Of a stretch of 28,102 nucleotides of DNA, positions 713 through 23,877 are shown in pieces. The notes beneath the pieces were generated by a model. The model ran no database searches and had not been told where the DNA came from. It saw nothing but the letters and a program-made list of their open reading frames with translations. Positions within the stretch are counted from its first letter, which is position 1, and every line of letters begins with the position of its first letter. This DNA comes from a virus. Both the position numbers and the translations under genes were made by a program. The stretch lies in IMG/VR virus record IMGVR_UViG_3300031784_000160, positions 1 to 28,102 of that record. The stretch is one strand, 5' to 3'.

Positions 713-717
713 GTTAT

Positions 718-1638
718 ATGAAAGAAAATAGTTTATTTGTAGAACGGTATAGAAGTAAAACATTAGATGAGTATATTGGTAATGAACAATTAAAACAAAT
801 TGTATCCCAATATATTAACAACAATGATATTCAAAATCTATTATTGTATGGTACACCTGGTACAGGTAAAACCACATTAGCTAAACTTATAGTCAACAAT
901 ATAAATTGTGACTTCCTATATATTAATGCATCGGATGAGAGGGGGATCGACACTATTAGAGATAAAGTGCAGGGTTTTGCCTCAAGCGCTTCATTCAAAC
1001 CCCTTAAGATTATTATCTTAGATGAAGCTGATTTCTTAACTATTCAGGCCCAAGCGTCATTAAGGAATATTATCGAGACATATTCTCGTACTACACGTTT
1101 TATCTTAACATGTAACTATCTTGAACGCATCATTGATCCCCTTCAATCCCGATGTCAAGTATTAAAAATTACTCCTCCATCTAAAAAAGAAGTAGCACAA
1201 CATGTTGCTAATGTTTTAGAACAGGAAAACATTAACTATGAATTAAATGACTTAGTATTAGTAGTTAATAAACATTATCCAGATGTCAGAAAAATACTTA
1301 ATACTTGCCAGGTTAATACAGTTGAAGATAAGTTAACCATTGATAAATCACTAATTGCATCAAATGGTTATACAGATGCTATTTTAAAAGAACTTAAAGC
1401 AGCAAATAAAAACAGCTTCAAAAACATCAGACAAATACTTGCAGATAGCAATTTGGATGACTTTGAAGAAATTTATAGATTCCTATATGATAATTTAGAT
1501 GAGTATGGTAAAGATGACTTAACCAAAGTATCAATTATTATTGAAATAGAAAACTATATGTACCATGCCAATTTTAGAATTGATAAAGAAATCAATGTAA
1601 TGGCCTTAATATGTTCAATTTTAAAAACAATACAATAA
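718..1638 (+). CDS. gp44: DNA polymerase sliding clamp loader large subunit (T4 gp44 / RFC-like AAA+ ATPase)
   Basis: This 306-residue AAA+ protein would load the phage sliding clamp onto primed DNA using ATP. Visible motifs are Walker A GTPGTGKT (residues 45-52), Walker B LDEAD (101-105), sensor-1 region TCN (131-133) and the RFC-family SRC motif with its arginine finger (144-146). The length fits T4 gp44 and archaeal/eukaryotic RFC small subunits. I start at ATG 718 rather than the in-frame TTG at 682, because 682 falls within the terminator stem and residues from MKENSLFVERYR onward match the family's N-terminus. The gp62-like small subunit lies just downstream, with one 80-aa gene between, as expected of a T4-type replisome block. 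Confidence 0.95.
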   Translation: MKENSLFVERYRSKTLDEYIGNEQLKQIVSQYINNNDIQNLLLYGTPGTGKTTLAKLIVNNINCDFLYINASDERGIDTIRDKVQGFASSASFKPLKIIILDEADFLTIQAQASLRNIIETYSRTTRFILTCNYLERIIDPLQSRCQVLKITPPSKKEVAQHVANVLEQENINYELNDLVLVVNKHYPDVRKILNTCQVNTVEDKLTIDKSLIASNGYTDAILKELKAANKNSFKNIRQILADSNLDDFEEIYRFLYDNLDEYGKDDLTKVSIIIEIENYMYHANFRIDKEINVMALICSILKTIQ

Positions 1639-2279: not shown

Positions 2280-2479
2280 AACTAGACAGTATTGTAACAT
2301 CAGTTATAAAACAATTTGAAGAGCGTAGCATTAAAGGTAAAGAAAAATATGGTACTGACTTGGATAGAGAAGATTTAGCTTTAATAGATTGGATAGAGCA
2401 TGCTAAGCAAGAGCATATGGATGCTATCTTATACTTGGAAAAAATCAAACAGCAATATCTTAAAGAAACTGAATCGTGA
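2276..2479 (+). CDS. Small helical phage protein, MazG/dATP-pyrophosphohydrolase-like
   Basis: A 67-residue helical protein that overlaps the gp62-like gene by ATGA and the nuclease gene by GTGA. It carries the pattern KYGTDLDREDL...WIEHAKQEHMDAILYLEK, which I associate with small phage proteins related to the MazG-like all-alpha nucleotide pyrophosphohydrolases: an acidic Glu/Asp pattern on helices plus a KYG-LDR loop. If so, it would trim (d)NTPs. The short length means at most half of a normal MazG helical bundle, so it may need to dimerise or may be non-enzymatic. Function is tentative; coding status is well supported by the two overlaps. Confidence 0.75.
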   Translation: MKLDSIVTSVIKQFEERSIKGKEKYGTDLDREDLALIDWIEHAKQEHMDAILYLEKIKQQYLKETES

Positions 2480-3405
2480 AAATACCATCTATAGTAAAAA
2501 CGATTCAAAAACAACCCATACAAGAAATAAACTATGCATTCCATAAAACAATTTCTTATAGCCAGTTCTCTATATATCATGAGTGCCCTCACAAGTGGGA
2601 ATTACAATACAAAGACAATTTACAACAGTATGAACCTACTATCCATACTGTGTTCGGAACCGCAATGCATACTGTTATTCAGCATTACCTTACTGTAATG
2701 TACAATGAAAGTGGAGCAGCAGCGGATAGAATAGATATAGAGACATTTTTTGAAGATGAGTTTAGAAAAGTATACTTAGAAGAATACAAGGCAAATAAAA
2801 GCACTCACTTTAGTGGAGCAGCAGAAATGAGAGAGTTTTATGATGATGGTATTGCTATATTAAGTTTCTTTAAAAAACACAAAGGACAATACTTCAGTAA
2901 ACGAGGATGGTATTTGATTGCTTGTGAGTTACCTATTGTTATAACGCCTAATAACGCGTTTAAAAATGTTTTATATAAAGGTTATATCGATCTTGTAATG
3001 TATCATGAACCCACAAATACCTTTAAGATATACGACTTTAAAACGTCTACTCGAGGATGGAATGATGATGCTAAAAGAGATGAGCGTAAACAATTTCAAT
3101 TGCTGTTCTATAAAAAATACTTTAGTGAACAGTATGGTGTTCCTGAAGAGAATATAGATGTTGAGTTTGTTATATTAAAAAGAAAAATATGGGAGGAAAG
3201 TGAGTATCCTCAAAGTCGTATTCAAGAATTTGCTCCTCCAAGTGGTAAAATTAAAATGAAAAAAGCATTAACCGCCATAGATAATTTTCTAAATGAATGC
3301 TTTAACATTGATGGATCATACAAAGACATATCGCATCCTGCGACCCCAAGTAAAAACTGTCAATGGTGTCCCTTTAATGAGAGAAAAGATCTTTGCAACA
3401 AATAG
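2476..3405 (+). CDS. PD-(D/E)XK nuclease with predicted 4Fe-4S cluster (RecB/Cas4/AddB-like)
   Basis: The 309-residue protein has the RecB-family nuclease order: the N-terminal helix SYSQFSIYHECPHKW with Cys37; GTAMHTVIQHY with His65; the core D...DFK motif (YKGYIDLVMY followed by IYDFKTST); and a QFQLLFY helix (the motif Q position). It ends with Cys295, Cys298 and Cys307 (CQWC...LC), which with Cys37 forms the four-cysteine set that holds a 4Fe-4S cluster in Cas4, AddB and Dna2-type nucleases. A single-stranded DNA exonuclease role in phage recombination or replication is likely. Start is GTG 2476, overlapping the preceding stop by GTGA; no ATG nearby would keep the N-terminal helix. The next promoter's -33 box lies within its last codons. 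Confidence 0.88.
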   Translation: MKIPSIVKTIQKQPIQEINYAFHKTISYSQFSIYHECPHKWELQYKDNLQQYEPTIHTVFGTAMHTVIQHYLTVMYNESGAAADRIDIETFFEDEFRKVYLEEYKANKSTHFSGAAEMREFYDDGIAILSFFKKHKGQYFSKRGWYLIACELPIVITPNNAFKNVLYKGYIDLVMYHEPTNTFKIYDFKTSTRGWNDDAKRDERKQFQLLFYKKYFSEQYGVPEENIDVEFVILKRKIWEESEYPQSRIQEFAPPSGKIKMKKALTAIDNFLNECFNIDGSYKDISHPATPSKNCQWCPFNERKDLCNK

Positions 3406-3632: not shown

Positions 3633-5066
3633 ATGAATCAAAGTTTTGCGTATTTACCTCAAAACAAGAGGAAAAAAATACTTTTAATTTGTGACGACAT
3701 TAGAGTCCACTCAGGTGTAGCAACTGTCGCTCGCGAATTAGTATTAAACACAGCCCAACATTTCAATTGGGTAAATGTAGGAGGTGCTATTAATCATCCT
3801 GAAGCAGGTAAACGAATGGATTTATCAGTGGATACCAATAATAATACTGGTTTAACTGATAGTTCTGTTATTTTATACCCAACTAATGGATATGGAGATG
3901 CTAGATTAATTAGACAGTTAATCCAAATGGAAAAACCAGATGCTATTTTCTTAATCACTGATCCAAGATATTTTATTTGGTTGTTCCAAATTGAAAATGA
4001 AATCAGAAAAAAAACACCTATCATTTACCTTAACATTTGGGATGATTATCCAGCTCCAATGTATAATAGATCATATTATGAGTCATGTGATGCTCTATTA
4101 GCTATCTCTAAACAAACTAAAAATATTAACACTTTAGTATTAGGTGATAAAGCTAAAAATAAAATTATTCAATATGTGCCTCATGGTTTAAATGAAGATA
4201 TCTTCAAACCGCTTGACAATACTTCTGAGTTAGAAGAATTTAAAAAGAAATTATTTGGAGGCAAAGAAATTGATTTTGCTCTATTCTTTAACTCTCGAAA
4301 CATTCGCCGCAAACAGATCCCAGATACAATGATGGCTTATAAGTTGTTTATTGATAGATTATCTGAGGAACAAGCAAAACATTGCGCGTTTGTATTACAT
4401 ACTCAAGTAGTAGATGATAATGGTACTGACTTAGAAGCAGTAAGAGAATTATTATTTGGTGATGACCCAAAATATAATATCATTTTCTCACCTCATATGC
4501 TCCCAGCTGATCAAATGAATTTGCTTTATAATAGCACTGATGCTCAAATTTTATTAACTAATAATGAAGGTTGGGGATTAAGTTTAACTGAAGCATTATT
4601 AGTAGGAAATCCAATTATTGCTAATGTGACAGGCGGAATGCAAGATCAAATGCGTTTTAGTAAAAAAGGTAAATGGATTGATTTTGACGCTAAGTTTCCT
4701 TCAAACCATAATGGTACAGTTAAAGAACATGGTGAGTGGGCATTTCCAGTTTATCCAACTAACCGTTCAATTCAGGGTTCACCATTAACTCCTTACATTT
4801 GGGATGATAGATGTAACGCTGAAGATGCAGCTGAACAAATTAAAGCTGTTTATGACTTGTCTAAAGAAGAAAGAAAAGCATGTGGTTTAAAAGGACGTGA
4901 ATGGGCTTTGTCTGATGAAGCAGGATTCACAGGTAAGAAAATGGGTGTTAATGTTATTAACACTTTAGATAAATTATTTAAAACTTGGAAACCAAGAGAA
5001 AAATATGAATTAGTAAATGCTAATGAAATCAAACCTAAAACAGTACCTCACGAATTAGTTTATTAA
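3633..5066 (+). CDS. Glycosyltransferase, GT4/GT-B type
   Basis: A 477-residue GT-B glycosyltransferase that should transfer a sugar from a nucleotide-sugar donor. The N-terminal Rossmann-like half begins KKILLICDDIRVHSGVATVARELV, a typical acceptor-domain start with a Gly-containing loop. The C-terminal donor domain carries the EX7E motif, Glu312 to Glu320 (EGWGLSLTEALLVGNPII), then a GG loop (NVTGGMQDQM). It opens the 12.6-kb glycan cluster and is followed 14 nt later by a second GT-B gene. Donor and acceptor cannot be read from the sequence. The start at 3633 is 7 nt after the previous stop. Confidence 0.88.
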   Translation: MNQSFAYLPQNKRKKILLICDDIRVHSGVATVARELVLNTAQHFNWVNVGGAINHPEAGKRMDLSVDTNNNTGLTDSSVILYPTNGYGDARLIRQLIQMEKPDAIFLITDPRYFIWLFQIENEIRKKTPIIYLNIWDDYPAPMYNRSYYESCDALLAISKQTKNINTLVLGDKAKNKIIQYVPHGLNEDIFKPLDNTSELEEFKKKLFGGKEIDFALFFNSRNIRRKQIPDTMMAYKLFIDRLSEEQAKHCAFVLHTQVVDDNGTDLEAVRELLFGDDPKYNIIFSPHMLPADQMNLLYNSTDAQILLTNNEGWGLSLTEALLVGNPIIANVTGGMQDQMRFSKKGKWIDFDAKFPSNHNGTVKEHGEWAFPVYPTNRSIQGSPLTPYIWDDRCNAEDAAEQIKAVYDLSKEERKACGLKGREWALSDEAGFTGKKMGVNVINTLDKLFKTWKPREKYELVNANEIKPKTVPHELVY

Positions 5067-5080
5067 TACCAAAAAGTTAT

Positions 5081-6391
5081 ATGAAACCATTATTTTTTAT
5101 TAGTTGCCCTATCGACACATATAGTGGATATGGAGCACGTTCCCGAGATTTAGTTAAAGCAATCATTGAGACAGACAAATATGATGTTAAAGTCATTCCT
5201 CAGATGTGGGGTAACACACCTTGGGGTTTTATTGAAGATAATCCTGAATGGTCATTTTTAACAGATCATTTATGGACTCAACCTCAACTCCCAAAACAAC
5301 CTGAGGTATGGATGCAAATTACAATCCCAAGTGAATTCCAGCCAATTGGTAAATTTAATATTGGAGTGACAGCTGGTATTGAGACAACACTTTCACCTGG
5401 TGATTGGATTGAAGGTATTAATAGAATGAATTTAACATTAACTTCTTCTGAGCATTCAAAAGAAACATTTGTTAAAACAGCACTTCAAAAAATTGATCAA
5501 CGTACTAATCAAGTGATTGGAGAAATGAGAGTTGAAAAACCAATTGAAGTATTATTTGAAGGTGCTAACATTGATATATATAAACCACTTGATACTGTAG
5601 AATCATTTCCTGAACTGACTGATGTTAAAGAAAAGTTCTGTTATTTGTTTGTAGGTCACTGGATTAATGGTGATTTGGGTGAGGATAGAAAAAATGTTGG
5701 GTTGTTAATTAAAGCATTTTATGAGACATTTAAAAATAAAAAACAAAAACCAGCACTTATTTTAAAGACATCTCAAATAGGTTCTTCATATGTTGACCGA
5801 GATGAAATTTTAAAAAGAATTAACATGATTAAAAAGACAGTTAATTCAAAAGATTTACCAAATGTTTATCTATTACATGGTGAATTTACTGATGTTGAAA
5901 TAAATGAATTGTATAATCATTCTAAAGTAAAAGCAATGATTAGTTTAACTAAAGGTGAAGGTTTTGGTCGCCCATTATTAGAGTTTAGTCTAACTAAAAA
6001 ACCAATTATCACAACCAATTGGAGTGGCCATAAAGATTTCTTAGATGAGAAATTTATCACTATGCTTCCAGGTACTATGACAAATGTTCATCCTAGCGCA
6101 GCTAACAATTGGTTATTAAAAGAATCACAATGGTTTTCAGTTGATACAGGTCATGTAGGACATCATTTAAAAAATATGTTTGAAAATTATAAAACATATA
6201 CTGATGGCGCTAAGCGTCAAGCATATAAGAGTAAAAATGAATTTAGTTGGGATAAAATGAAAGATAAACTAGATCAATTATTCACTCAATATATTCCTGA
6301 GTTTCCAAAAGCAATTGAATTAAAATTACCTCAATTAAAGAAAATTGAATTACCAAAACTTAAAAAAGTAGAAGAAAATGTCGCCGGATAA
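5081..6391 (+). CDS. Glycosyltransferase, GT4/GT-B type
   Basis: This 436-residue protein begins MKPLFFISCPIDTYSGYGARSR, the glycine-rich acceptor-domain start of GT4-like enzymes, and has the C-terminal EX7E motif at Glu293 and Glu301 (EGFGRPLLE) followed by PIITTNWSGHKDFL. A Lys/Leu/Pro low-complexity tail (repeats of LPQLKK and LPKLKK) ends the protein and might mediate contact with a partner or membrane. The AAGTTATATG start context is shared with several other genes in the window. It overlaps the next gene by 14 nt. Specificity is unknown. Confidence 0.87.
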   Translation: MKPLFFISCPIDTYSGYGARSRDLVKAIIETDKYDVKVIPQMWGNTPWGFIEDNPEWSFLTDHLWTQPQLPKQPEVWMQITIPSEFQPIGKFNIGVTAGIETTLSPGDWIEGINRMNLTLTSSEHSKETFVKTALQKIDQRTNQVIGEMRVEKPIEVLFEGANIDIYKPLDTVESFPELTDVKEKFCYLFVGHWINGDLGEDRKNVGLLIKAFYETFKNKKQKPALILKTSQIGSSYVDRDEILKRINMIKKTVNSKDLPNVYLLHGEFTDVEINELYNHSKVKAMISLTKGEGFGRPLLEFSLTKKPIITTNWSGHKDFLDEKFITMLPGTMTNVHPSAANNWLLKESQWFSVDTGHVGHHLKNMFENYKTYTDGAKRQAYKSKNEFSWDKMKDKLDQLFTQYIPEFPKAIELKLPQLKKIELPKLKKVEENVAG

Positions 6392-6842
6392 AATTATTGC
6401 ATGCCCTAAATCAGGAGGTGACTTGTGTTATGAAACACAAGTTACACCTGAAATTACAAACTGGATGTCTCTATCTTGTGGTTATTGGACTAATAGTTTA
6501 ATGACTAAGGATAGTGATTTCTATAAAGAACAATTTGAAGTACTACCTGAGTTATACAAAGCATTAGCTTGGGAAGATCCTGAAACAAAATTAACTTGGT
6601 TACCACAAACAATAAATCTTCCAACACAAGGTATGGTATTTGCAAATGGTACTTCATCTGATAATTGGAAGTGGGCAGCTGTTAAAGCAACTCAAGTAAC
6701 AGAAGAAGAAAAAGAAAAATACCCAATCCCAAAACAACCAGGTAAATTCTATGAATATAGAATGAATATGGAAACACTTCAACATTTTGAAGAAAGAGAT
6801 TTTATAGATGCTTTAGAATATATTGGCCTTATAGGAAAGTAA
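6378..6842 (+). CDS. Unknown protein within the glycan cluster
   Basis: A 154-residue soluble protein overlapping the previous glycosyltransferase gene by 14 nt. The N-terminal region has several cysteines (IIACPKSGGDLCYE...LSCGYW), perhaps a small structural or metal site. The rest is rich in Trp, Tyr and Lys-Pro segments. No glycosyltransferase motif is visible and I cannot name a family. Its last bases contain the -33 element of the following promoter. Confidence 0.78.
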   Translation: MSPDKIIACPKSGGDLCYETQVTPEITNWMSLSCGYWTNSLMTKDSDFYKEQFEVLPELYKALAWEDPETKLTWLPQTINLPTQGMVFANGTSSDNWKWAAVKATQVTEEEKEKYPIPKQPGKFYEYRMNMETLQHFEERDFIDALEYIGLIGK

Positions 6843-6853
6843 TATTATATTAG
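6822..6853 (+). promoter_or_regulatory. Bacteroidota-type promoter inside the glycan cluster
   Basis: ATTG (6822-6825) and TATATTAG (6846-6853) are exactly 20 nt apart, with the extended upstream AATAT also seen at the 25398 site. Only 6 nt separate the -7 element from ATG 6860, so the transcript would be leaderless or nearly so. The -33 match is imperfect (ATTG rather than TTTG). Confidence 0.5.
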
Positions 6854-6859
6854 GGTTAT

Positions 6860-7483
6860 ATGAAAATTAGTTATGCTATTACAGTCTGTAATGAACTGGA
6901 AGAAATTAAACGTCTAATTAGTTTCCTCCATCAACATAAACGCCATGAAGATGAAATTTGTGTTTTGTTAGATAAACCAAAAGCCTCCCCAGAGTTATTA
7001 TACCAATTAAATGTATATTCTTCTGAAGATTTTATTATCTTAAAAGAAAGTGAATTTAAAGGACATTTCGCTGATTGGAAAAATCAATTAAATGAAATAT
7101 GTTCTGGTGATTATATCTTTCAGATTGATGCTGATGAGTTACCTAATGAATATCTAATTGAATCATTACCTGAAATATTAGAAACTAATTCAAGTGTAGA
7201 AGCATATGTTGTTCCGAGAGTTAATACTGTAGAAGGTTTAACTCCAGAACATATTGCTAAGTGGGGATGGCATGTTAATGAAAATGGGTGGATTAATTGG
7301 CCTGATTATCAATGGAGAATATATAAAAACAGTCCTGGTATTGAATGGAAAAATAAAGTACATGAGGTTATAGAAGGATACAAAACTGTAGCTCAATTAC
7401 CCGCTTATGAGGATTTAGCATTATATCATCCAAAGACAATACAACGTCAAGAAAAACAAAACAATTACTATAATACGTTATGA
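6860..7483 (+). CDS. Glycosyltransferase family 2-like (GT-A)
   Basis: A 207-residue GT-A enzyme. It begins ISYAITVCNELEEIKRLI, the usual start of a GT2 nucleotide-binding domain, and has a DXD metal/nucleotide motif at Asp90-Asp92 (FQIDADE). The later part has a Trp-rich stretch (WHVNENGWINWPDYQWRIY) and a His-containing element (KVHEVIEGY) as in GT2 enzymes of the beta-1,4-glucosyltransferase (WaaE) type. It is compact for the family. The gene follows its own promoter and overlaps the next one by ATGA. Confidence 0.85.
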   Translation: MKISYAITVCNELEEIKRLISFLHQHKRHEDEICVLLDKPKASPELLYQLNVYSSEDFIILKESEFKGHFADWKNQLNEICSGDYIFQIDADELPNEYLIESLPEILETNSSVEAYVVPRVNTVEGLTPEHIAKWGWHVNENGWINWPDYQWRIYKNSPGIEWKNKVHEVIEGYKTVAQLPAYEDLALYHPKTIQRQEKQNNYYNTL

Positions 7484-8298
7484 AAAAAAAAGATTTAATA
7501 GTTGGATGTGTATCTAACTATAATTATGATAATATTCACAATTGGTCTAAATCTTTGATTCAATCAGGATTTGATGGAGATAAATTTATTATAACATATA
7601 ATATATCTAATGATACTCTATTAGAATTACAAAAAGATGGATTTATAATATATGAAAGCCAATTGTATACTAATATTGTTGTTCAACGTTTTGCTGATGT
7701 TTGGAGATTACTTAATAATCTTGATCTCACTCAATATAACTGGCTAATCTCTACAGATGTAAAAGATGTTATATTCCAGACTAATCCTTCAAATTGGTTA
7801 GATAAAAATATGAAAGACTATAAATTTGTAGTAGCTTCTGAATCTCTTAAATATTGTGATGAAGATTGGGCTGTCTACAATATGAATGAATCTTATGGAC
7901 CTGAAGTTTATCAATGGATATCTGATAAAACAATATATAATGCTGGAAGCGTAGCTGGTGAAGTAAATTTTACTAAAGACTTATTTTTTATTAATTATTT
8001 ACTTTCATTAGCTGGAAAAAGTCATAATCCAGATCAAGCATCTTTAAATATTTTATTATCAACTAATTTACTTCAAGATAAAATTAAATATACAGATAAT
8101 ATAGATGGTTGGGCTTGCCAATTAGGCACTACCATGGACCCAGCTAAAATAGAAAAATATAAACCTAAACTATTAGAGTCTCAACCATTAGTAAAAAATA
8201 ATAAATTAATAAACTCTCAAGGAGAAGAATATTGTTTAGTCCACCAATATGATAGAGTTCCTGAGTTAAAAAACATTATCAATCAAATTTATGCTTAA
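7480..8298 (+). CDS. Probable glycosyltransferase (GT-A-like, DXXD)
   Basis: A 272-residue protein with a Rossmann-like start (LIVGCVSNYNYDNIHNW) and an acidic motif STDVKDVIFQ with Asp93 and Asp96, in the place where nucleotide-sugar transferases carry their DXD. Further typical pieces are NAGSVAG, DQASLNILL and LVHQYDR, which resemble the metal-binding and closing motifs of GT8/GT-A type enzymes. The family cannot be fixed from sequence alone. It is coupled to both neighbours: ATGA overlap upstream and 8-nt overlap downstream. Confidence 0.75.
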   Translation: MKKKDLIVGCVSNYNYDNIHNWSKSLIQSGFDGDKFIITYNISNDTLLELQKDGFIIYESQLYTNIVVQRFADVWRLLNNLDLTQYNWLISTDVKDVIFQTNPSNWLDKNMKDYKFVVASESLKYCDEDWAVYNMNESYGPEVYQWISDKTIYNAGSVAGEVNFTKDLFFINYLLSLAGKSHNPDQASLNILLSTNLLQDKIKYTDNIDGWACQLGTTMDPAKIEKYKPKLLESQPLVKNNKLINSQGEEYCLVHQYDRVPELKNIINQIYA

Positions 8299-8959
8299 TT
8301 TTGGAGTCCATATACAGTGTTACAAAAATAATAAAGCTGTTGATTACTGTTTAGAACAATTTAGAAATTATTATCCTGAAAATCCAATTAGATTACTTTC
8401 TGATAATGGAGATGATTTTGATAATCTAGTAGAAAAGTATAACATATTTTATAAAAAAGAAAGTAAAAATATTTTACCTAAAGGTAAAATGAATGGAAGT
8501 GATGGAGTATATGAGTATCTATCTCGTATTAATAATACCTGTCTATTATTTGATACAGAATGGATATTCCTAATGGAGGAAGATGTTTTAACTAAAGGAA
8601 TAATAAAATCATTCCCTAATACTGAAGCAGCTGGAATATGTTCTCATCCTTTTCATCCTGAACTTGAAAATTATTTAAAATCAAAAAATAATAATACTGT
8701 GTTAGGATATGGAATGTGTGGGGGCAGTATTTTTAAAAGACAAACATTTTTAGATTGCTACCAACATATTAATTCCTTTAACCTCCCAGAACTAGAAAAA
8801 ATGGATCCCAGAATAACAGGATGGAGTGATATTCCTTTAACTGTATTTTTTATAATAAATGGGTATTCATACTCAATATGGGATGAGACAGAACAACCCT
8901 CAGCTAATATATATCATAATAATTCTTCATTTGAACATGATTTTAAAAAATACTACTAA
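8291..8959 (+). CDS. Probable glycosyltransferase (GT-A-like)
   Basis: A 222-residue protein beginning NFGVHIQCYKNNKAVDYCLE, a GT-A-like first strand and helix. It has an acidic cluster LMEEDVLTKG (residues 94-103) where a DXD would sit, and a Gly-rich loop YGMCGGSIFKR. It overlaps the upstream gene by 8 nt and stops 1 nt before the next start. Donor and acceptor are unknown. The EED in place of a classic DXD makes activity less certain. Confidence 0.72.
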   Translation: MLNFGVHIQCYKNNKAVDYCLEQFRNYYPENPIRLLSDNGDDFDNLVEKYNIFYKKESKNILPKGKMNGSDGVYEYLSRINNTCLLFDTEWIFLMEEDVLTKGIIKSFPNTEAAGICSHPFHPELENYLKSKNNNTVLGYGMCGGSIFKRQTFLDCYQHINSFNLPELEKMDPRITGWSDIPLTVFFIINGYSYSIWDETEQPSANIYHNNSSFEHDFKKYY

Positions 8960-8960
8960 T

Positions 8961-9761
8961 ATGACACAAGGATACTTTTTTTTAGGATTAGGAAAATATT
9001 ATATAGATGAATCTATTAATCTTTTAAAAACTATTAAAAAATTTGATAATAAAAGATTATTTGGTATTATGGTAAATCAAGAAGATTACCAATACGCTAA
9101 AGAATTAGATTTATTTGATTCTATAATAATTAATGATTATTCTCATCCTTTATATCAAACAGTTAAAACCTCTTTTGAGAAATATTGTTTGATTCCTAGA
9201 ATAACTTTTAATGAATATTTACCATTTGAAGAAACTATTATACTTGATAGTGATATCCTATGTATTTCTAATCCTGATAATATGTGGGAATATTTTTCAA
9301 ACAACTCTCAAGATTTTAATATGACTGGGTTTGAATGGGATGAAAATTGGCATTGGGGTACAATAAAAAATGTATCTAAAATTATAGGAAAATCTGTACC
9401 TCATACTCATGGAGGAGTTTTTTATATTAGAAATAAAGAAAAGTTAAAAACTTACTTTGATCTATGTCATGATGTATATCATAAGTATGATGAATGTGGA
9501 TTATTACAAAATTTTAGAGGTGGTAGAGTAGATGAGCCTATATTTGCTGTAGCTATGGCATTAAGTGATATGTTGCCATTAGATTTTATTAAATACCCTA
9601 TAATTACTTTTAATCTTTCTGGAGACACTGTTTTTCCTACAAATCTACAAACTGTAAATAACCTAAACATTAACTGTGAAGAATATATACCTTTTGTTCA
9701 TATGTTTGAAAAATCTACAGGAAACAATTATAAACAAATTTTAAATAAAATATTAAACTAA
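8961..9761 (+). CDS. Probable glycosyltransferase (GT8-like)
   Basis: A 266-residue GT-A-like protein with a clear DXD motif at Asp96-Ser-Asp98 (IILDSDILCISNPDNMWEYF), a HGGVFYIR loop and a late His (FVHMFEKSTGNN), an arrangement resembling GT8-type transferases. I place the start at ATG 8961, 1 nt after the previous stop, because it gives a normal first strand (GYFFLGLGKYYIDES). The in-frame ATG at 8859 would force a 101-nt overlap and add a non-family N-terminus. Confidence 0.78.
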   Translation: MTQGYFFLGLGKYYIDESINLLKTIKKFDNKRLFGIMVNQEDYQYAKELDLFDSIIINDYSHPLYQTVKTSFEKYCLIPRITFNEYLPFEETIILDSDILCISNPDNMWEYFSNNSQDFNMTGFEWDENWHWGTIKNVSKIIGKSVPHTHGGVFYIRNKEKLKTYFDLCHDVYHKYDECGLLQNFRGGRVDEPIFAVAMALSDMLPLDFIKYPIITFNLSGDTVFPTNLQTVNNLNINCEEYIPFVHMFEKSTGNNYKQILNKILN

Positions 9762-9768
9762 ATTAAAT

Positions 9769-10368
9769 ATGAGACGAATATTCTTAGATGGTGGCACACA
9801 TTATGGCCAAGGATTACAACAATTTATACAAAAATATAATATCACTCCAGAATGGGAAATACATACTTTTGAAGCTAATCCAGTAACATATAATCATTTT
9901 TTAGAAAAAAATCCTCATTTGCTTCAACGTTTTAATATAAATCATTATAATAAAGCATTATCTAATAAAAATGGAGTAGTGACTATAAACCAAGAAACCC
10001 CACCAAATGAAGATAACTCAGGAATGGGATCTTCTATTATTTCTTTAGATAAGTGGAATCCATGGGGTGGGGCTTTAAGAGAAAATTTTAAAACAACATC
10101 TGAAGTTGAATGTATTGATTTATCTGAGTTCATTTTAAATAATTTTTCTAAAGAAGATTTTATTGTATTTAAATTAGATATAGAAGGAGCTGAGTATGAT
10201 GTGTTAGAATCCTTAATAGAAACTGAAGCTATTTTTCACATTAATGATTTATATGTTGAATTTCATTCAAGATTTTTTACAAATTCTGAAGAAATCTTAA
10301 TCAAAGAAAATAATATTAAATCCTTTATTTTAAATAATACTCAAGTTAGACTTACAGAATGGCACTAA
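9769..10368 (+). CDS. FkbM-family SAM-dependent methyltransferase
   Basis: A 199-residue class I methyltransferase. It has SAM motif I FLDGGTHYGQG (residues 5-15), motif II acidic residue in HTFEANP, and the FkbM hallmark KLDIEGAEYDVLESL near residues 130-145. FkbM enzymes O-methylate sugars or polyketides, so here it probably methylates a hydroxyl on the glycan being built. It overlaps the UDP-galactopyranose mutase gene by 10 nt. A second FkbM-type gene sits at the end of the cluster. Confidence 0.88.
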   Translation: MRRIFLDGGTHYGQGLQQFIQKYNITPEWEIHTFEANPVTYNHFLEKNPHLLQRFNINHYNKALSNKNGVVTINQETPPNEDNSGMGSSIISLDKWNPWGGALRENFKTTSEVECIDLSEFILNNFSKEDFIVFKLDIEGAEYDVLESLIETEAIFHINDLYVEFHSRFFTNSEEILIKENNIKSFILNNTQVRLTEWH

Positions 10369-11504
10369 TTGAATACAATTATATTATTGTAGGTTCAGGA
10401 TTCTTTGGCTCAATATGTGCTTATGAGTTAACTAAAAAAGGTTATAAATGTCTAGTTTTAGAAAAACGAGACCATATTGGAGGCAATTGTTACACAGAAA
10501 ATAAAGATGGAATCAACATCCATACTTATGGGCCCCATATCTTTCACACATCAAATAAAAAAGTATGGGAGTGGATAAATCAATTTGTTTCTTTTAATGA
10601 TTTTACTCTTCGACCTGTAGCTAATTATAAAGGTGAAATTTATTCTTTACCTTTTAACATGTGGACATTCTCCAAATTATGGGGAGTGACCCACCCAGAC
10701 CAAGCTAAATTAGAAATTGAAAGACAAAGTGAACACATTAAAGACCCTCAAAATTTAGAAGAACAAGCTATTAAACTAGTAGGAGTAGATGTTTATGAAA
10801 AGTTAATTAAAGGATATACTACTAAACAATGGAAAAAAGATCCTAAAGAATTACCTAAAGAAATTATAAAACGACTACCTGTTAGATTTAACTATGATAA
10901 TAATTATTTTAATGATAAGTATCAAGGTATTCCTATAGGTGGTTATACTCAAATATTTGAAAAATTATTAGAAGGAATTGAAGTTAAATTAGGAGTTGAT
11001 TATTTAAAAGATAAAGAATACTGGGATAATCAAACTGAAAAGATAATATATACTGGACCTATAGATGCTTATTTTAACTATCAATTTGGGGAATTAGAAT
11101 ATAAAACAACTAAATTTGATCATAAAAAATTAGGGACAGATAACTTTCAAGGTGTAGCTATGATGAACTATACAGATGAAGAAACTCTTCATACACGATG
11201 TATAGAACATAAACATTTTGAATTCATAGATTCTCCAACAACCTGGATTACTTGGGAGTATCCAACTGAATATAAAGCCCAACAAACAGAACCTTACTAC
11301 CCAGTTAATGATAAAGAAAATACTTTAAAATATTCTCAATATAAAAACTTGACTAATCAAGAAAAAAATATTATTTTTGGAGGTAGATTAGCAGAGTATA
11401 AATACTATGATATGCATCAAGTAATTGAATCTGCTTTAAATTTTGTAAAACAAGAAATTAATGATAACACAAATAGCAATACATACTTTACCTTACGAGA
11501 TTGA
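10359..11504 (+). CDS. glf: UDP-galactopyranose mutase
   Basis: A 381-residue flavoenzyme that converts UDP-galactopyranose to UDP-galactofuranose. The N-terminal FAD-binding motif is IIVGSGFFGS (GXGXXG at residues 12-17), followed by the family signatures VLEKRDHIGGNCYTE and HTYGPHIFHT. The conserved substrate-binding region RPVANYKGEIYSLPFN and the C-terminal FAD segment (FGGRLAEYKYYDMHQVIESAL) are also present. Length is normal for the family. It implies that the cluster makes a galactofuranose-containing glycan, provided the host supplies UDP-galactose. The next gene overlaps its 3' end by 44 nt. Confidence 0.96.
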   Translation: MALIEYNYIIVGSGFFGSICAYELTKKGYKCLVLEKRDHIGGNCYTENKDGINIHTYGPHIFHTSNKKVWEWINQFVSFNDFTLRPVANYKGEIYSLPFNMWTFSKLWGVTHPDQAKLEIERQSEHIKDPQNLEEQAIKLVGVDVYEKLIKGYTTKQWKKDPKELPKEIIKRLPVRFNYDNNYFNDKYQGIPIGGYTQIFEKLLEGIEVKLGVDYLKDKEYWDNQTEKIIYTGPIDAYFNYQFGELEYKTTKFDHKKLGTDNFQGVAMMNYTDEETLHTRCIEHKHFEFIDSPTTWITWEYPTEYKAQQTEPYYPVNDKENTLKYSQYKNLTNQEKNIIFGGRLAEYKYYDMHQVIESALNFVKQEINDNTNSNTYFTLRD

Positions 11505-12336
11505 TCAATTAGAAAGACTTTTAATCCAATTAAAAAGAAACTCTAAACACCTCACTCCAGATAATAATATTATTACTGATGTTGTATTAAATGTTAATTT
11601 AAACAATTGGGATAATTCTTCTCTATCAAAAGAATTTTTTATAGATAAATTTTATCAATTAGAGCAATTAACTAAAACTTGGTCTACAACTAATTTTCAC
11701 ATCAATGATAATAATGAAATTTTAGGTTGTGTGAGTCATAGGAGAAAAGTATTTAGAGAAACTCAAGCTGATAATGTTTTAGTTCTTGATACTGATGTAT
11801 TTTTTAGTGATAGTTTGTTATATCATATTATTAATGGGGCGTTATTAATAGAACAAAATAGTCCATATTATGTGTTAACTCCCCAAATAACTAAAATGTG
11901 GGATAACAGTTGGGATTGTTTAGTTAATGATGCTTTTTTAAATGATTCAACTAATGAATTTAAAAATAAAGATCCATTTATAACAGCAGATTGTTTAGGA
12001 GAAGTTAGTATAAAACCTATTGATGGTTTTAAATTTGGAGGAGGATGGGGAACATTAATAAGTGTTCCATTATTAAGAAAAATAGATATACCTGACTCAT
12101 TAGGACATTATGGCCTAGAAGACACATATATAATGATTTGCTCTTCTTTTCTTAAACAGAACGGACTTAATGTAAATCAATATGTTTTAGAAAATGAACT
12201 CCTAATTGAAGATAATAGATTTAGATTTAGCCCATATAAAAAATACTTATCAGCTATAGATAGAAGAGAAGAATTTAAAAAAATAGCTAATGAAAATTTT
12301 CAAAAAGAATTAAATAAATTTGGAAGTTCTTTATAA
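11461..12336 (+). CDS. Probable glycosyltransferase (GT-A-like)
   Basis: A 291-residue protein starting at an ATG within the glf gene (44-nt overlap); this start gives a plausible first strand and helix (QIAIHTLPYEIDQLERLL). A DXD motif is present at Asp110-Thr-Asp112 (VLVLDTDVFFSD), and a Gly-rich FKFGGGWGTLISV loop precedes a GLEDTYIM segment resembling the ED acceptor-base region of GT2 enzymes. Given the adjacent mutase it might use UDP-galactofuranose, but this is inferred only from position. Confidence 0.78.
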   Translation: MITQIAIHTLPYEIDQLERLLIQLKRNSKHLTPDNNIITDVVLNVNLNNWDNSSLSKEFFIDKFYQLEQLTKTWSTTNFHINDNNEILGCVSHRRKVFRETQADNVLVLDTDVFFSDSLLYHIINGALLIEQNSPYYVLTPQITKMWDNSWDCLVNDAFLNDSTNEFKNKDPFITADCLGEVSIKPIDGFKFGGGWGTLISVPLLRKIDIPDSLGHYGLEDTYIMICSSFLKQNGLNVNQYVLENELLIEDNRFRFSPYKKYLSAIDRREEFKKIANENFQKELNKFGSSL

Positions 12337-12349
12337 AATTATATATTAC
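12319..12349 (+). promoter_or_regulatory. Bacteroidota-type promoter before the aminotransferase-like gene (19-nt spacer)
   Basis: TTTG (12319-12322) and TATATTAC (12342-12349) are 19 nt apart, one less than the other sites. The -7 element ends 5 nt before ATG 12355, so a leaderless transcript is predicted. Weakest member of the set. Confidence 0.42.
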
Positions 12350-12354
12350 ATATT

Positions 12355-12996
12355 ATGAAAAATGTCTATGATATAACAACTGAGTTTGAAAAACGATTAG
12401 GAGAATACACTGGTGCTCCATATGTTATAACTCTTGATAACCAATCTAATGGATTATTTTTAGCTTTATATTATGAAAACTATATAACTAAAAATATCAA
12501 ATCAGAATCTATAACTATCCCATCAAGAACATATCCTTCAGTACCATGTGAAATAATCCATGCTGGTTTAAAAGTTAAATTTAAACAAGTTGAAGGTAAA
12601 ACTATTAAAGGAGCATATCAATTAGAAGGATCTAATGTATGGGACTCTGCTTTATCCTTCACAACCAACATGTATAAATCAGGTACACATATGTGTATCT
12701 CATTTACTGGCCCATATAAGCATTTTAAATTAAGTAAAGGAGGAGCTATATTAACTGATAGTTTAGAAGCTTACCATTGGTTTAAAAGAGCTAGATACTC
12801 TGGTAGGAGAGAATGTTCATATCATGATGATTATTTTGATATGTTAGGATGGAATTTTTATATGATGCCTGAGTTAGCTTCTAGAGGATTATTATTAATG
12901 AATCAATTTTATAATTTAGATGGTACTCCTAAACATAATGAAGATTTAGAATTGCCTTATCCTGATTTATCTAAATTTGAAATATATAAAAAATGA
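12355..12996 (+). CDS. Short DegT/DnrJ/EryC1/StrS-type aminotransferase-like protein
   Basis: Family members use PLP to aminate a keto-sugar nucleotide and are normally about 370 residues; this one is 213. Recognisable pieces in order are FEKRLGEYTGAPYVITLDNQ, SNGLFLALYY (SGT-AL loop), IPSRTYPSVPCEIIHAG, WDSALSF with Asp97 (pyridine-nitrogen partner), ISFTGPYKHFKLSKGG with the likely Schiff-base Lys122, and GWNFYMMPELASRGLLLMNQF. About 50 residues of the central Rossmann part and most of the C-terminal small domain are missing, yet the key Lys and Asp remain and the frame is intact. It overlaps the acyltransferase gene by ATGA, a pairing like PglE-PglD. It could be a minimal enzyme or a sugar-binding relic. 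Confidence 0.82.
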   Translation: MKNVYDITTEFEKRLGEYTGAPYVITLDNQSNGLFLALYYENYITKNIKSESITIPSRTYPSVPCEIIHAGLKVKFKQVEGKTIKGAYQLEGSNVWDSALSFTTNMYKSGTHMCISFTGPYKHFKLSKGGAILTDSLEAYHWFKRARYSGRRECSYHDDYFDMLGWNFYMMPELASRGLLLMNQFYNLDGTPKHNEDLELPYPDLSKFEIYKK

Positions 12997-13571
12997 AATT
13001 AGCATTATATGGTTATGGAGGTCATGCTAAAGAAGTAGCAGCTCAAATAGGCCAAGATGTTATATTTTTTGTAGATGATAATTACGCAAATGAATATACT
13101 CAACCTATTTCATCATTTAACCCAAATGAATATTCAATGATAGTAGCTACTGGTGATTCTAGAACCAGATATGACATGGTTCAAAAATTACCAAAAGAAA
13201 CTAAATTTTTTACTTTCATTCATCCTACAGCATTAATGTTAAGTGATAATATTGAGATTGGAGAAGGTAGTTTTATTGGTGCTAATTCAATATTAACAAC
13301 TAATATTAAAATAGGTAAACATGCTTTGTTAAATCGAGGAAACCATATAGGTCATGATACAATAATTGGAGATTATTTTAGCGCAATGCCTGGAGCTATA
13401 GTATCAGGTAATGTTAGAATTTATGATGTAGTTTATTTAGGTACTAATTCATCAATAAGAGAAAAAACATCAATCCATAGTTTCACCACCATAGGCCTTA
13501 ATTCAGGTGTAGTTAAAGATATAATAGAACCTGGTGTATATGGTGGAACACCTATCAAAAAAATAAAATAA
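12993..13571 (+). CDS. Sugar O/N-acyltransferase, PglD/NeuD type (left-handed beta-helix)
   Basis: A 192-residue acyltransferase. The N-terminal nucleotide-sugar-binding Rossmann part begins LALYGYGGHAKEVAAQIG. The C-terminal half is a left-handed beta-helix built of hexapeptide repeats (for example IEIGEGSFIGANSI, IKIGKHALLNRGNHIGHD), with HIGHD supplying the likely catalytic His. The end GVYGGTPIKKIK matches the family. PglD-type enzymes acetylate UDP-4-amino sugars made by a PglE-type aminotransferase, which fits the overlapping aminotransferase-like gene. The next gene overlaps by 1 nt. Confidence 0.9.
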   Translation: MKLALYGYGGHAKEVAAQIGQDVIFFVDDNYANEYTQPISSFNPNEYSMIVATGDSRTRYDMVQKLPKETKFFTFIHPTALMLSDNIEIGEGSFIGANSILTTNIKIGKHALLNRGNHIGHDTIIGDYFSAMPGAIVSGNVRIYDVVYLGTNSSIREKTSIHSFTTIGLNSGVVKDIIEPGVYGGTPIKKIK

Positions 13572-14254
13572 TGAAAATCCATATTTTTTATAGACATTAT
13601 AATATAGAGGGTTCAGACTATAAAAATCGTCCCCAATGGTTTGATTTTGAAAAATGTTTCATAAATCTTCTTAATACTATAGAAGGTAAAAATGTTGACC
13701 TCCATTTAATAATGGATGGAAATATTGAAAATAATTTTGTGAACAAATATAAAGATAAATATATTTTACATATTATAGATGCTAAATCAGACCAAATCTC
13801 ATTTTGGAAAACATGGGAAATAGCTAAACAAACTTTGATTAGTGATAAAGATTTAGTATATTTTTTAGAGAATGATTACTTACATGTTGACAATTGGGTT
13901 GATAAAGTGATAGATTTATTCTCTTCTTATAATAATTTAAATTATGTAAGTTTATATGATCATAATGATAAGTATTTTTTACCTATGTATGATGATTTAG
14001 TATCAAAAATATTCACTTCTGAAACTTGTCATTGGAGAACAACCCCAAGTACTTGTGGTAGTTTCATTATACCAAAAAATATTTTTGAAGAAGATTATAA
14101 TGAACATACCACTATACCAGGAGACCATAACAAATTCTTACATTTAACTCACACTAAAAACAGATTTATAATAACCCCTATCCCAGGATTATCAACTCAT
14201 TGTATGGAGGGGCTATTATCACCTACTATTAATTGGGAACAAATAAATAAATAA
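13571..14254 (+). CDS. Probable glycosyltransferase (GT-A-like)
   Basis: A 227-residue protein whose start codon overlaps the preceding stop (TAATG). It begins KIHIFYRHYNIEGSDYKNRP and has an acidic motif in VYFLENDYLHVDNWVDK, in the position of the GT-A DXD, followed by TPSTCGSFIIPK and an acidic/His segment TTIPGDHNKFLHL. The pattern resembles a GT2-type enzyme but lacks a strict DXD, so the exact family is unsettled. Confidence 0.72.
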   Translation: MKIHIFYRHYNIEGSDYKNRPQWFDFEKCFINLLNTIEGKNVDLHLIMDGNIENNFVNKYKDKYILHIIDAKSDQISFWKTWEIAKQTLISDKDLVYFLENDYLHVDNWVDKVIDLFSSYNNLNYVSLYDHNDKYFLPMYDDLVSKIFTSETCHWRTTPSTCGSFIIPKNIFEEDYNEHTTIPGDHNKFLHLTHTKNRFIITPIPGLSTHCMEGLLSPTINWEQINK

Positions 14255-14256
14255 TT

Positions 14257-14838
14257 ATGATATACGATTTAGAAAAAAAAGTAAATGAAGTATATTTTAT
14301 GTCTTCTGATATTAATGAGCATATACCTGCTTTATTAAAATATGGTGGAGAATGTAAACATATAACAGAAATGGGGGTTAGAGGAATATGCTCAACATGG
14401 GCTTTTTTAGGAGCTAATCCTAAAAAATTAATTAGTTATGACATTCAAGATCCATCTACATGGGGTGAGAGCATACAAAATGTAAAAGATACAGCTGAAG
14501 CATATGGAATTGATTTCACATTTATATTAGCTGATGTGTTAAAAATAGAAATTGAAGAAACAGATTTACTATTTTTAGACACTTGGCATTCATATAAACA
14601 ATTAAAATCAGAGTTAGAATTACATGCTGGTAAAGTTAAAAAATATATTGTATTTCATGATACTACCTCATATGCTGATAAAGATGAAACTTCATATGAA
14701 CATTGGGGAGATGAATGGAAAGCTGAAGGAATAGGTATTTGGAAGGCTATTGAAGAATTCTTAACTTCAAACCCAGAATGGGAATTAAAAGAACGCTTTT
14801 ATAATAATAATGGTTTAACTGTTATAGGAAAAATATGA
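14257..14838 (+). CDS. Class I SAM methyltransferase-like protein (CmcI/methyltransferase-24 type)
   Basis: A 193-residue Rossmann protein with a SAM-motif-like ITEMGVRGICSTWAFLGA, an acidic ISYDIQDP strand end, a central LLFLDTWHSYKQLKSEL and IVFHDTTSYAD. The LDTWHSY...FHD pattern matches CmcI-like methyltransferases. It probably methylates a sugar in the glycan pathway. It overlaps the next gene by ATGA. The substrate cannot be told from sequence. Confidence 0.78.
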   Translation: MIYDLEKKVNEVYFMSSDINEHIPALLKYGGECKHITEMGVRGICSTWAFLGANPKKLISYDIQDPSTWGESIQNVKDTAEAYGIDFTFILADVLKIEIEETDLLFLDTWHSYKQLKSELELHAGKVKKYIVFHDTTSYADKDETSYEHWGDEWKAEGIGIWKAIEEFLTSNPEWELKERFYNNNGLTVIGKI

Positions 14839-15599
14839 TAAGTGTAATTATACCAACATATAAGTCACCAGAAATGTTAGACTTATGTCTACATTCTTGT
14901 ATTGAGGGGCAACAAAATAAAAATCAAATTATAGTTGTTGTAGATGGATTTTATGATTTAAATAAAGAAGTACTTGAAAAATGGGCTGAATATATTGATG
15001 TTTTAAATTTAGAACAAAATGTAGGTTTATGTCGAGGAACTAATTTAGGAGTATATAATGCTCAATATGATAAGATATTGATTGTTAACGATGATAATGT
15101 GTTTCCAAAAAATTGGGACATCCATTTAGAAACAGATTATGTTAAAAACTCATTATTAACACCTAATCAAATTGAACCATACCCTAGTATGTTTAATCAA
15201 TTCCACATTAAAGATTTAGGTAAGTCAGTTGATACATTTGATTTAGAATATTTTCAAGAGTATGAAAAAACATTAAATGAGGTAGTCTATAAGAAAATGC
15301 CTGAGGAAACAGGTTCAACATTACCTATTTTTATGTCAAAAGTAGATTATTTAAGAATTGGAGGGTGGGATGAAAACTATGAACTAGGAATGGTAGCAGA
15401 TTGGGATTTCTTTTTAAAATGTCAATTATCAGGATTAAAAATGTTTAGAACTTATAATTGTCATTTCTACCATTTCGCTTCAGTGTCTACTAATGGAGAA
15501 AAAAGACAAAAAGCAGAACAAAATGGTCATGAATATGCTAAATACAAATGGGGTACTTATATTAAACATAACCCACAGAATAATTTAAAGTTTTTATGA
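14835..15599 (+). CDS. Glycosyltransferase family 2
   Basis: A 254-residue canonical GT2 enzyme: ISVIIPTYKSPEMLDLCL at the N-terminus, NVGLCRGTNLGV, then the metal-binding DDN at residues 86-88 (ILIVNDDNVFPKNW), and a C-terminal half with GGWDENYELGMVADWDFFLK, where the acidic residues act as catalytic base. It ends with a His-rich strand (CHFYHFASVST). Tight coupling (ATGA overlaps on both sides) makes it part of the methyltransferase-flanked end of the cluster. Confidence 0.92.
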   Translation: MISVIIPTYKSPEMLDLCLHSCIEGQQNKNQIIVVVDGFYDLNKEVLEKWAEYIDVLNLEQNVGLCRGTNLGVYNAQYDKILIVNDDNVFPKNWDIHLETDYVKNSLLTPNQIEPYPSMFNQFHIKDLGKSVDTFDLEYFQEYEKTLNEVVYKKMPEETGSTLPIFMSKVDYLRIGGWDENYELGMVADWDFFLKCQLSGLKMFRTYNCHFYHFASVSTNGEKRQKAEQNGHEYAKYKWGTYIKHNPQNNLKFL

Positions 15600-16267
15600 G
15601 ATCATTAAAAGAAATAACACCTCGAAATTTTAATCATTTTTGCCAGCGAACAACTAATTATCAAAAATCTCAATTAAGGCAAGATTTATTTATATTGTTT
15701 ATTACTAATTTTAAACAAAATGGATATTTTATTGAAGCAGGGGCAAGTGATGGGGTTACATTTAGTAATACTTTTACTTTAGAAAAAAACTTTAATTGGC
15801 AAGGAATATTAATTGAACCAGGTCTATATTGGAAAGAACTTTTAAGTAAAAATAGAACATGTCATATAGGTTATAAAGCTCTTTGGAAAGAAAATAATTC
15901 TGTTCTATTTAATGAGATTCAAAATAATCCTACTTTATCACATATATCCTCTATTGATTCAAGTAGTTGGATGTTTGATATCAATCAAGAGAAAAAATCA
16001 CAATATACAGTCCCCAGTACCACTTTAGTAGATATATTAAAATATTATGATGCCCCAAATGTTATAGATTATTTATCTTTAGATATTGAAGGTTCAGAAT
16101 ATGATGTTTTAAATAGTTTTAATTTTGAAACATATGATATTAAAATTATAACAGTTGAACATAATTATTCTCCCAATAGAGAAAAAATATTTAATCTACT
16201 ACAAAGCAAATATAATCGTGTGTTAACTGAAGTAAGTGGAAAAGAGGATTGGTATATTAAAAAATAA
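15596..16267 (+). CDS. FkbM-family SAM-dependent methyltransferase
   Basis: A 223-residue methyltransferase of the FkbM family, closer to the subgroup beginning with SQLRQDLFILF. Motif I is YFIEAGASDGVTFSNT, motif II ILIEPG, and the family hallmark LSLDIEGSEYDVLNSF is followed by IITVEHNYSPNR. It is the last gene of the glycan cluster, overlapping the GT2 gene by ATGA; a promoter follows directly. It and the 9769 gene may methylate different hydroxyls. Confidence 0.9.
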   Translation: MRSLKEITPRNFNHFCQRTTNYQKSQLRQDLFILFITNFKQNGYFIEAGASDGVTFSNTFTLEKNFNWQGILIEPGLYWKELLSKNRTCHIGYKALWKENNSVLFNEIQNNPTLSHISSIDSSSWMFDINQEKKSQYTVPSTTLVDILKYYDAPNVIDYLSLDIEGSEYDVLNSFNFETYDIKIITVEHNYSPNREKIFNLLQSKYNRVLTEVSGKEDWYIKK

Positions 16268-21298: not shown

Positions 21299-21555
21299 AA
21301 AGGTTATATTTTTATAATGATAATGTTTATGTTATATTAAGAGCTATTCCTGTTAGTAACTTCTATAAGAAAGAAGAATTAAATAGAGAGTTTCTTAATG
21401 GATGGAAAGAGTATTTAGGAGCGGATCATATATTAAAAACTGATACTCATTTCTTGTTTTGTGAAATTATTCAAGAACCTGAATGGAATGAAATAACAGA
21501 AGAATTAATAGTTACAGATGAAGAACAGTTACAACCCGAACAGCAAGATATTTAG
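21295..21555 (+). CDS. Small protein of unknown function
   Basis: An 86-residue protein with an aromatic, beta-rich N-terminus (RLYFYNDNVYVILRAIPVSNFY) and an acidic Gln/Glu C-terminal tail. The tail overlaps the ClpP-like gene by 38 nt in another frame. No recognised family. Confidence 0.68.
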   Translation: MKRLYFYNDNVYVILRAIPVSNFYKKEELNREFLNGWKEYLGADHILKTDTHFLFCEIIQEPEWNEITEELIVTDEEQLQPEQQDI

Positions 21556-22060
21556 AACAATTGTTTTAAGTGGTGAAATAGATGAGTCATCTGTTAAAGA
21601 TGCTATTCAAACTATCTCATTTATAAATGAAATTGATAGTGGTAAGGATGAAGTTGAACCTATAAAACTAATCATTAATAGTTTAGGTGGTAACATACTT
21701 GATGGTTTTGCTTTAATTGGTGTTATAGAAAACTCATTTGTTCCTGTCTATACATATGGTTATGGGTCAATAATGTCAATGGCATTACCTATACTAGTAG
21801 CTGGTGATAAACGTTTTGGTCACCCTCTAGCTACATTTATGTATCATGAATGCTTGGACAGTGTGCCTTATGATAAAATGTCTATCATAAAAGAGAATAT
21901 AGAGGAAACAGATCGATTAATGGACATGTATGATGATTATCTCATCTCCAGAACATCACTAACTCAAAAACAGTTAAATAAAGTTAAGAATAAAAAAACT
22001 GACTGGTATTTTGGCTCTGATGAAGCTCTTAGTTATAATATAATAAATGAAGTAATATGA
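21518..22060 (+). CDS. clpP: ClpP-like serine protease
   Basis: A 180-residue peptidase of the ClpP (S14) fold. It has INSLGGNILDGFALI with the oxyanion glycines (57, 58), YGYGSIMSMALPILVAG with the nucleophile Ser87 in MSM, FMYHE with His110, and KKTDWYFGSDEALSYNIINEVI with Asp162. These align with E. coli Ser97, His122 and Asp171, so the triad is complete. It lacks the usual N-terminal propeptide and is a little shorter than the bacterial enzyme. As no ClpX/ClpA-type gene is visible nearby, it might work with host unfoldases or act in head assembly; no capsid gene is in the window to support the latter. Confidence 0.88.
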   Translation: MKNSYNPNSKIFRTIVLSGEIDESSVKDAIQTISFINEIDSGKDEVEPIKLIINSLGGNILDGFALIGVIENSFVPVYTYGYGSIMSMALPILVAGDKRFGHPLATFMYHECLDSVPYDKMSIIKENIEETDRLMDMYDDYLISRTSLTQKQLNKVKNKKTDWYFGSDEALSYNIINEVI

Positions 22061-23706: not shown

Positions 23707-23877
23707 ATGTTAAATACAATTATTAGCTTAGCAATCCTAGGATTTGGATTAAATTATTATTTTAAGTATCAAAACCTTAAAAAACAAATGAGTACACCTT
23801 CAACAACTCCAACAGGTGATGAGCCAAATGACACTTCACAACCAACAAGTGTACCTGAAAAACAAATTGGAGACTAA
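23707..23877 (+). CDS. Small membrane-anchored protein with Thr/Pro-rich tail
   Basis: A 56-residue protein with one N-terminal hydrophobic helix (LNTIISLAILGFGLNYYF), a basic stop-transfer (KYQNLKKQ) and a Thr/Pro/Ser-rich tail. It begins 3 nt after the previous stop, and its TAATG overlaps the T9SS cargo gene's start by 1 nt, so coupling is likely. Function unknown. Confidence 0.68.
   Translation: MLNTIISLAILGFGLNYYFKYQNLKKQMSTPSTTPTGDEPNDTSQPTSVPEKQIGD

Follow-up and report, generated by a model that had tools for sequence, protein, structure and literature searches.

The window analyzed here, a virus record of 28,102 bases, contains an open reading frame (ORF) at 12355-12996 on the plus strand that starts with ATG, has no internal stops and encodes a compact member of the DegT family, hereafter mini-DegT. 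The gene lies in an island of glycan genes and is followed by an acyltransferase gene. The features discussed below are as follows, with residue roles given by alignment.

3633-16267, plus strand: glycan gene island around mini-DegT, including several glycosyltransferases, two FkbM-type methyltransferases, a UDP-galactopyranose mutase and a CmcI-like methyltransferase
12355-12996, plus strand: compact DegT-family protein (mini-DegT, clade A), 213 residues plus stop, assigned from Pfam, homologues and AlphaFold2
12445-12447, plus strand: codon of Ser31, which is Ser or Thr in all copies and aligns with the Thr that binds phosphate in full-length DegT enzymes (role: PMC5936713)
12532-12534, plus strand: codon of Tyr60, invariant, at the site where an aromatic residue packs against the ring of PLP
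12643-12645, plus strand: codon of Asp97, invariant, aligned with the Asp bound to the pyridine nitrogen of PLP
12700-12702, plus strand: codon of Ser116, invariant, aligned with the phosphate-binding Ser
12718-12720, plus strand: codon of Lys122, invariant, aligned with the Schiff-base Lys186 of GDP-perosamine synthase
12736-12741, plus strand: codons of Lys128-Gly129; the Glu of the GEGG motif is Lys or Arg in all homologues seen
12946-12993, plus strand: short tail at the C terminus (PYPDLSKFEIYKK region) that takes the place of the small domain; both clades keep its P-D/N-L core
12993-13571, plus strand: NeuD/PglD-type hexapeptide N-acyltransferase, 192 residues, overlapping mini-DegT by ATGA

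Elsewhere in the window (682-1638, 2476-3405, 21518-22060 and 25653-26750), Pfam matches revealed a clamp-loader-like AAA ATPase, a PD-(D/E)XK nuclease and a Clp-type protease, and a thymidylate-synthase-like ORF was recognized by eye only. The protein encoded at 23877-25418 possesses a CHU_C type IX secretion signal domain, which suggests a Bacteroidota host.

Mini-DegT scored 41.7 bits against the Pfam DegT profile (PF01041, DegT/DnrJ/EryC1/StrS), well above the cut-off of 19.8. The alignment fell into two blocks, with residues 5-84 matching profile positions 23-98 and residues 110-197 matching positions 163-246 (of 360). Positions 99-162 and 247-360 were essentially missing, and the protein thus departs from the full-length architecture of a large plus a small domain. 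The 64 central profile positions are represented by 25 residues, for a net loss of ∼40. Beyond position 246 the profile has 114 further positions, for which the protein offers only 16 residues; it therefore lacks the small domain. An earlier reading made from the sequence alone had described a DegT-like protein of 213 residues in an intact frame that lacked most of its C-terminal small domain and about 50 central residues. The ORF and the profile match bear out this description, including the central loss itself; its size is the one point to be revised, to ∼40 residues by the profile.

AlphaFold2 modeling of the window protein (113 homologues) gave a pLDDT of 94.8 and a pTM of 0.92, and a representative of the second clade (clade B, see below) gave 95.2 and 0.91. 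When Foldseek was used to search with the window model, the three best chains were all GDP-perosamine synthase, with E values of ∼1e-9. VIA-align comparison with the PDB matches from Foldseek yielded 50 best entries that were all full-length DegT-type enzymes (Z scores of 19.0 to 16.8), with ∼197 of the 213 residues aligned at ∼3 Å; the Z score for GDP-perosamine synthase was 18.0. Alignment of mini-DegT with full-length DegT by hhalign gave 99.6% with an E value of 1.6e-23. In the models, the large domain has the fold-type I PLP fold. They suggest that strands 3 and 5 have lost the two helices between them and that the rest of the sheet is kept.

A scan of IMG/VR with the window protein retrieved 486 related viral stretches, the best 80 of which were ∼78% identical or more to the query and aligned over essentially its whole length. 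A second viral scan using a clade B query retrieved at least 591 relatives, a set that may overlap with the first. Among named phages, tblastn identified Flavobacterium phage vB_FspM_immuto at 80% identity, where the annotation reads WecE-like transaminase, as well as two uncultured megaphages and, at 29%, Synechococcus phage S-SCSM2R. When 85,000 prokaryote species were scanned with a profile, nine mini-DegT loci were located, including some in Neomarinimicrobiota metagenome-assembled genomes (MAGs) and one in a Prochlorococcus single cell. The carriers are hundreds of aquatic viral contigs, two isolated phages (vB_FspM_immuto and S-SCSM2R) and a few bacteria. The PHROGs library barely recognizes the family, the names given to its members in GenBank are taken from the full-length enzymes, and no description of a short DegT family was found in the literature searched.

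The complete copies (n = 258) separate into clade A, to which the window protein belongs (172 copies, median of 214 residues), and clade B (86 copies, median of 197 residues), which are ∼31-35% identical to each other. Nearly all are 194-222 residues long, and the few longer copies represent extensions; no copy among the 258 possesses the central part or the small domain that mini-DegT lacks. The sequence-only reading had proposed a search for phage homologues of 200-220 residues, and homologues of conserved length are now found on hundreds of contigs, far more than chance would give. It had also named a closely related full-length homologue as the sign of a simple truncation; none of the 258 restores the missing parts. 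Comparison of the window gene with eight homologues gave dN/dS values of 0.07-0.11, indicative of strong purifying selection, and this result together with the conserved length led us to reject a simple truncation or pseudogene. On three contigs (L148:1249-3864, L151:3003-5618 and L153:3012-5618), mini-DegT forms the C-terminal part of an 870-residue fusion with a group 1 glycosyltransferase and an FkbM methyltransferase, and one of these contigs (L151, in G076) carries both clades. Two others (L126 and L129) each encode two mini-DegT copies, one of each pair being only 42% identical to that of the window; by sequence, these divergent copies possibly represent a third subgroup.

The crystal structure of Spr1654 shows PLP in contact with Thr59, Tyr84, Asp170, His173, Ser194, Lys199, Glu205 and Gly206 (PMC5936713). 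Profile alignments place these contacts on Ser31, Tyr60, Asp97, Leu100, Ser116, Lys122, Lys128 and Gly129 of mini-DegT, with the mapping running via GDP-perosamine synthase and full-length phage DegT sequences rather than residue by residue. In all 182 unique mini-DegT sequences, which span both clades, Tyr60, Asp97, Ser116, Lys122 and Gly129 are invariant and position 31 is Ser or Thr. For at least five of the eight published contact positions to fall within the 20 invariant columns, the hypergeometric P is 2e-4. The earlier assignment of Lys122 as the PLP lysine, with Asp97 retained, was correct in its numbering and agrees with the alignment, in which these residues correspond to Lys186 of GDP-perosamine synthase and to the ED-type aspartate that full-length DegT proteins conserve. 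Two contact positions are changed: residue 100 is Leu or Val (normally a Gln or His on O3'), and residue 128 is Lys or Arg (normally the Glu of GEGG). Furthermore, Tyr169 stands at the position of the Arg in the NYRM motif, and the spacing between Ser116 and Lys122 is one residue longer in clade A than in clade B. Asp28 is invariant and adjoins the phosphate-binding turn in the sequence; our guess is that it might pair with Lys/Arg128. The small domain of Spr1654 supplies a His that lines the substrate site (PMC5936713), and this domain is missing from mini-DegT.

The gene neighborhoods of the two clades point to amino-sugar synthesis. In the window, the sequence-only reading had noted the ATGA overlap with a PglD/NeuD-like acyltransferase gene, and the analysis confirms this: the next ORF starts at 12993, and its product matches TIGR03570 (NeuD/PglB/VioB acetyltransferase) over the full length with an E value of 3.6e-44, scoring 150.8 bits against a cut-off of 160.8. 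The same protein matches PF17836 (PglD_N, 37.5 bits) and PF00132 (hexapeptide, 38.9 bits), both above their cut-offs. The gene following mini-DegT is PglD-like in 59 of 108 unique clade A loci when assessed by clustering, or in 54 by direct BLAST. A strong full-length NeuD/PglD match is present on 31 of 44 whole clade A contigs or phage records and lies within 2 kb of mini-DegT in 30 of these 31 cases, compared with an expectation of 1.4. In 11 other clade A loci, identified by clustering, a WbqC-like gene (PF08889) is located directly downstream instead of the PglD-like gene (e.g., L168:6636-7289). Genes resembling GDP-mannose 4,6-dehydratase (GMD) occur on only 9 of the 44 clade A contigs, and none is present in the window. 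These counts leave the clade A substrate unexplained and rule out the perosamine pathway as a universal mini-DegT route; the host is the probable source of the sugar substrate for clade A.

Of 78 clade B loci, 64 have a GMD-like gene immediately downstream of mini-DegT, and the two genes often overlap by ATGA. Twenty-two of the 23 GMD-like genes tested matched TIGR01472 (GDP-mannose 4,6-dehydratase), and the one that was fully tabulated scores below the equivalog cut-off. A gene for a WbuC-like cupin of ∼137 residues (e.g., L212:4066-4497 and L182:4591-5001) occupies an upstream position in 68 of the 79 loci. Of 40 contigs, 39 carry a cupin match, most of these falling under the cut-off of the model. 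The one copy scanned against Pfam matched no family, and PDB matches of the cupin to designed propeller proteins, along with other weak ones, were dismissed as chance. A single variable gene, encoding a methyltransferase, a formyltransferase or a hexapeptide acyltransferase, usually separates the cupin from mini-DegT; the order acyl- or formyltransferase, mini-DegT, GMD was observed in 11 loci. Neomarinimicrobiota MAGs (L172:3862-7562, also L174 and L175) contain the WbuC-like cupin, a methyltransferase-like gene, mini-DegT and GMD in a run that looks like part of a polysaccharide cluster of bacterial type; in L172, a full-length DegT gene lies upstream. This run was detected in 4 of 149 Neomarinimicrobiota genomes.

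Some contigs carry a full-length DegT gene in addition to mini-DegT: 16 of the 44 contigs of clade A and, among the viral contigs of clade B, 11 of 38. Where both occur, the full-length enzyme could serve the pathway. No such gene is present on the remaining 28 and 27 contigs, respectively, many contigs being fragments. We also considered that the gene might be split, an adjacent gene supplying the small domain. The common neighbors surveyed (acyltransferases, GMD, the WbuC-like cupin, WbqC, methyltransferases and glycosyltransferases) include no obvious small domain, and on the basis of these neighbors a split gene was set aside.

From the residue conservation and the structural models, we think it reasonably likely that mini-DegT is a compact, catalytically competent PLP-dependent nucleotide-sugar aminotransferase, the product of which is N-acylated by the neighboring enzyme. 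The protein would retain the PLP-binding large domain minus two helices between β-strands 3 and 5, with the small domain exchanged for a short conserved tail. PLP would be held by Ser31/Thr and Ser116 at the phosphate, by Tyr60 at the ring and by Asp97 at the pyridine nitrogen, and it would form a Schiff base with Lys122. The enzyme would then aminate a keto-sugar nucleotide, the donor being an amino acid and probably L-glutamate. Clade B enzymes would most likely act on GDP-4-keto-6-deoxymannose from the adjacent GDP-mannose 4,6-dehydratase, yielding a perosamine-like sugar. The PglD-type neighbor would N-acylate the new amino group, and the surrounding glycosyltransferases would attach the sugar to produce decorated phage or host glycans. 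The conserved P-D/N-L tail is a candidate for glutamate binding and active-site closure. On balance, we also lean toward the more specific proposal that this phage family of ∼195-215 residues constitutes a minimal fold-type I PLP aminotransferase without a small domain, having a remodeled phosphate site (Asp28 plus Lys/Arg128) and a tail that closes the active site of a dimer. The sequence-only reading had envisaged that a half-size PLP enzyme, coupled to an acyltransferase, is functional; the short length conserved in two clades, the invariant PLP-site residues, the confident fold and the amino-sugar context are all consistent with that view, and the function itself we infer from sequences and models.

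That the small domain and the O3' Gln/His have been lost, that partner enzymes are tightly linked and that some contigs carry full-length DegT would also suit a PLP- or nucleotide-sugar-binding pseudoenzyme, one that serves PglD, GMD or full-length DegT as a subunit for binding, chaperoning or regulation. A sugar-binding pseudoenzyme had been the alternative put forward in the sequence-only reading. It is disfavored because all 182 sequences, from two such divergent clades, retain the Schiff-base lysine, which binding does not require; moreover, most contigs encode no full-length DegT that could be assisted. We regard a pseudoenzyme as unlikely. A decayed or truncated gene devoid of function is highly improbable, for its half-normal length is the sole feature in its favor and is countered by length conservation, a dN/dS of ∼0.1, hundreds of copies, invariant active-site residues and a confidently predicted fold.

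Mini-DegT might instead be an active PLP/PMP nucleotide-sugar enzyme other than an aminotransferase, such as a C3 dehydratase, isomerase or epimerase. The sole PDB chain retrieved by a single-sequence search was a mutant of the E1 3-dehydrase, matching at the K-H motif, and the WbuC-like cupin and GMD neighbors permit other 4-keto sugar chemistry. However, wild-type E1 and ColD have His at the position of the family's Lys (this His is mutated to Lys in entries 3bb8 and 3gr9), and the acyl- and formyltransferase neighbors imply an amino group to acylate; we consider such an activity rather doubtful. Mini-DegT is probably a working small enzyme rather than a broken one. It is a real, widespread, compact form of a known family and, as judged from sequences and models, most likely an active nucleotide-sugar aminotransferase that supplies a pathway to N-acylated amino sugars within the glycan islands of phages.

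A dimeric active site surrounded by both a large and a small domain is believed to be a requirement of fold-type I PLP enzymes. A half-size version that occurs in nature and is conserved in many phages would reveal which parts of the fold are dispensable and offer a compact scaffold for amino-sugar synthesis. If the aminotransferase assignment is true, mini-DegT would rank among the smallest fold-type I PLP enzymes, and many aquatic phages would be seen to make their own N-acylated amino sugars, likely for disguising or modifying surface glycans.

Of the known systems, GDP-perosamine synthase (Per/RfbE; PDB 3bn1, 3dr4 and 3dr7) shares with mini-DegT the fold, the PLP-site Tyr, Asp, Ser and Lys, and the GG turn. 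Its PDB chains comprise 364-368 residues compared with 195-214 in mini-DegT, and its small domain, β3-β5 helices, GEGG Glu, O3' residue and NYRM Arg are missing or changed in the phage protein. The likeness in gene context holds for clade B only, where GMD and sometimes a formyl- or acetyltransferase are partners, whereas most clade A contigs and the window lack GMD. Other DegT/DnrJ/EryC1/StrS sugar aminotransferases, including PseC, ArnB, WlaRG and Spr1654, match structurally (Z scores of 17-19) and have the same PLP-site anatomy, but all are full length and are 13-24% identical to mini-DegT by structural alignment. CDP-4-keto-6-deoxyglucose 3-dehydrase E1 and ColD are relatives by fold, and the K-H motif region of mini-DegT resembles that of the E1 H220K mutant; the wild-type enzymes are full length and lack the Schiff-base Lys that is invariant in mini-DegT. 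The 12993-13571 product is a close but slightly sub-threshold member of the PglD/NeuD/PerB N-acetyltransferases (TIGR03570). The N-formylperosamine genes of Brucella are gmd, per and wbkC, and this locus is resembled by the 11 clade B loci described above and, in the order formyltransferase, mini-DegT, GMD, by clade B loci L173, L221 and L225; Brucella Per is a full-length DegT, however, and the phage loci additionally contain the WbuC-like cupin. The viosamine pathway of Mimivirus likewise pairs a virus-encoded sugar aminotransferase with an acetyltransferase, but there the DegT protein is full length and the virus infects eukaryotes.
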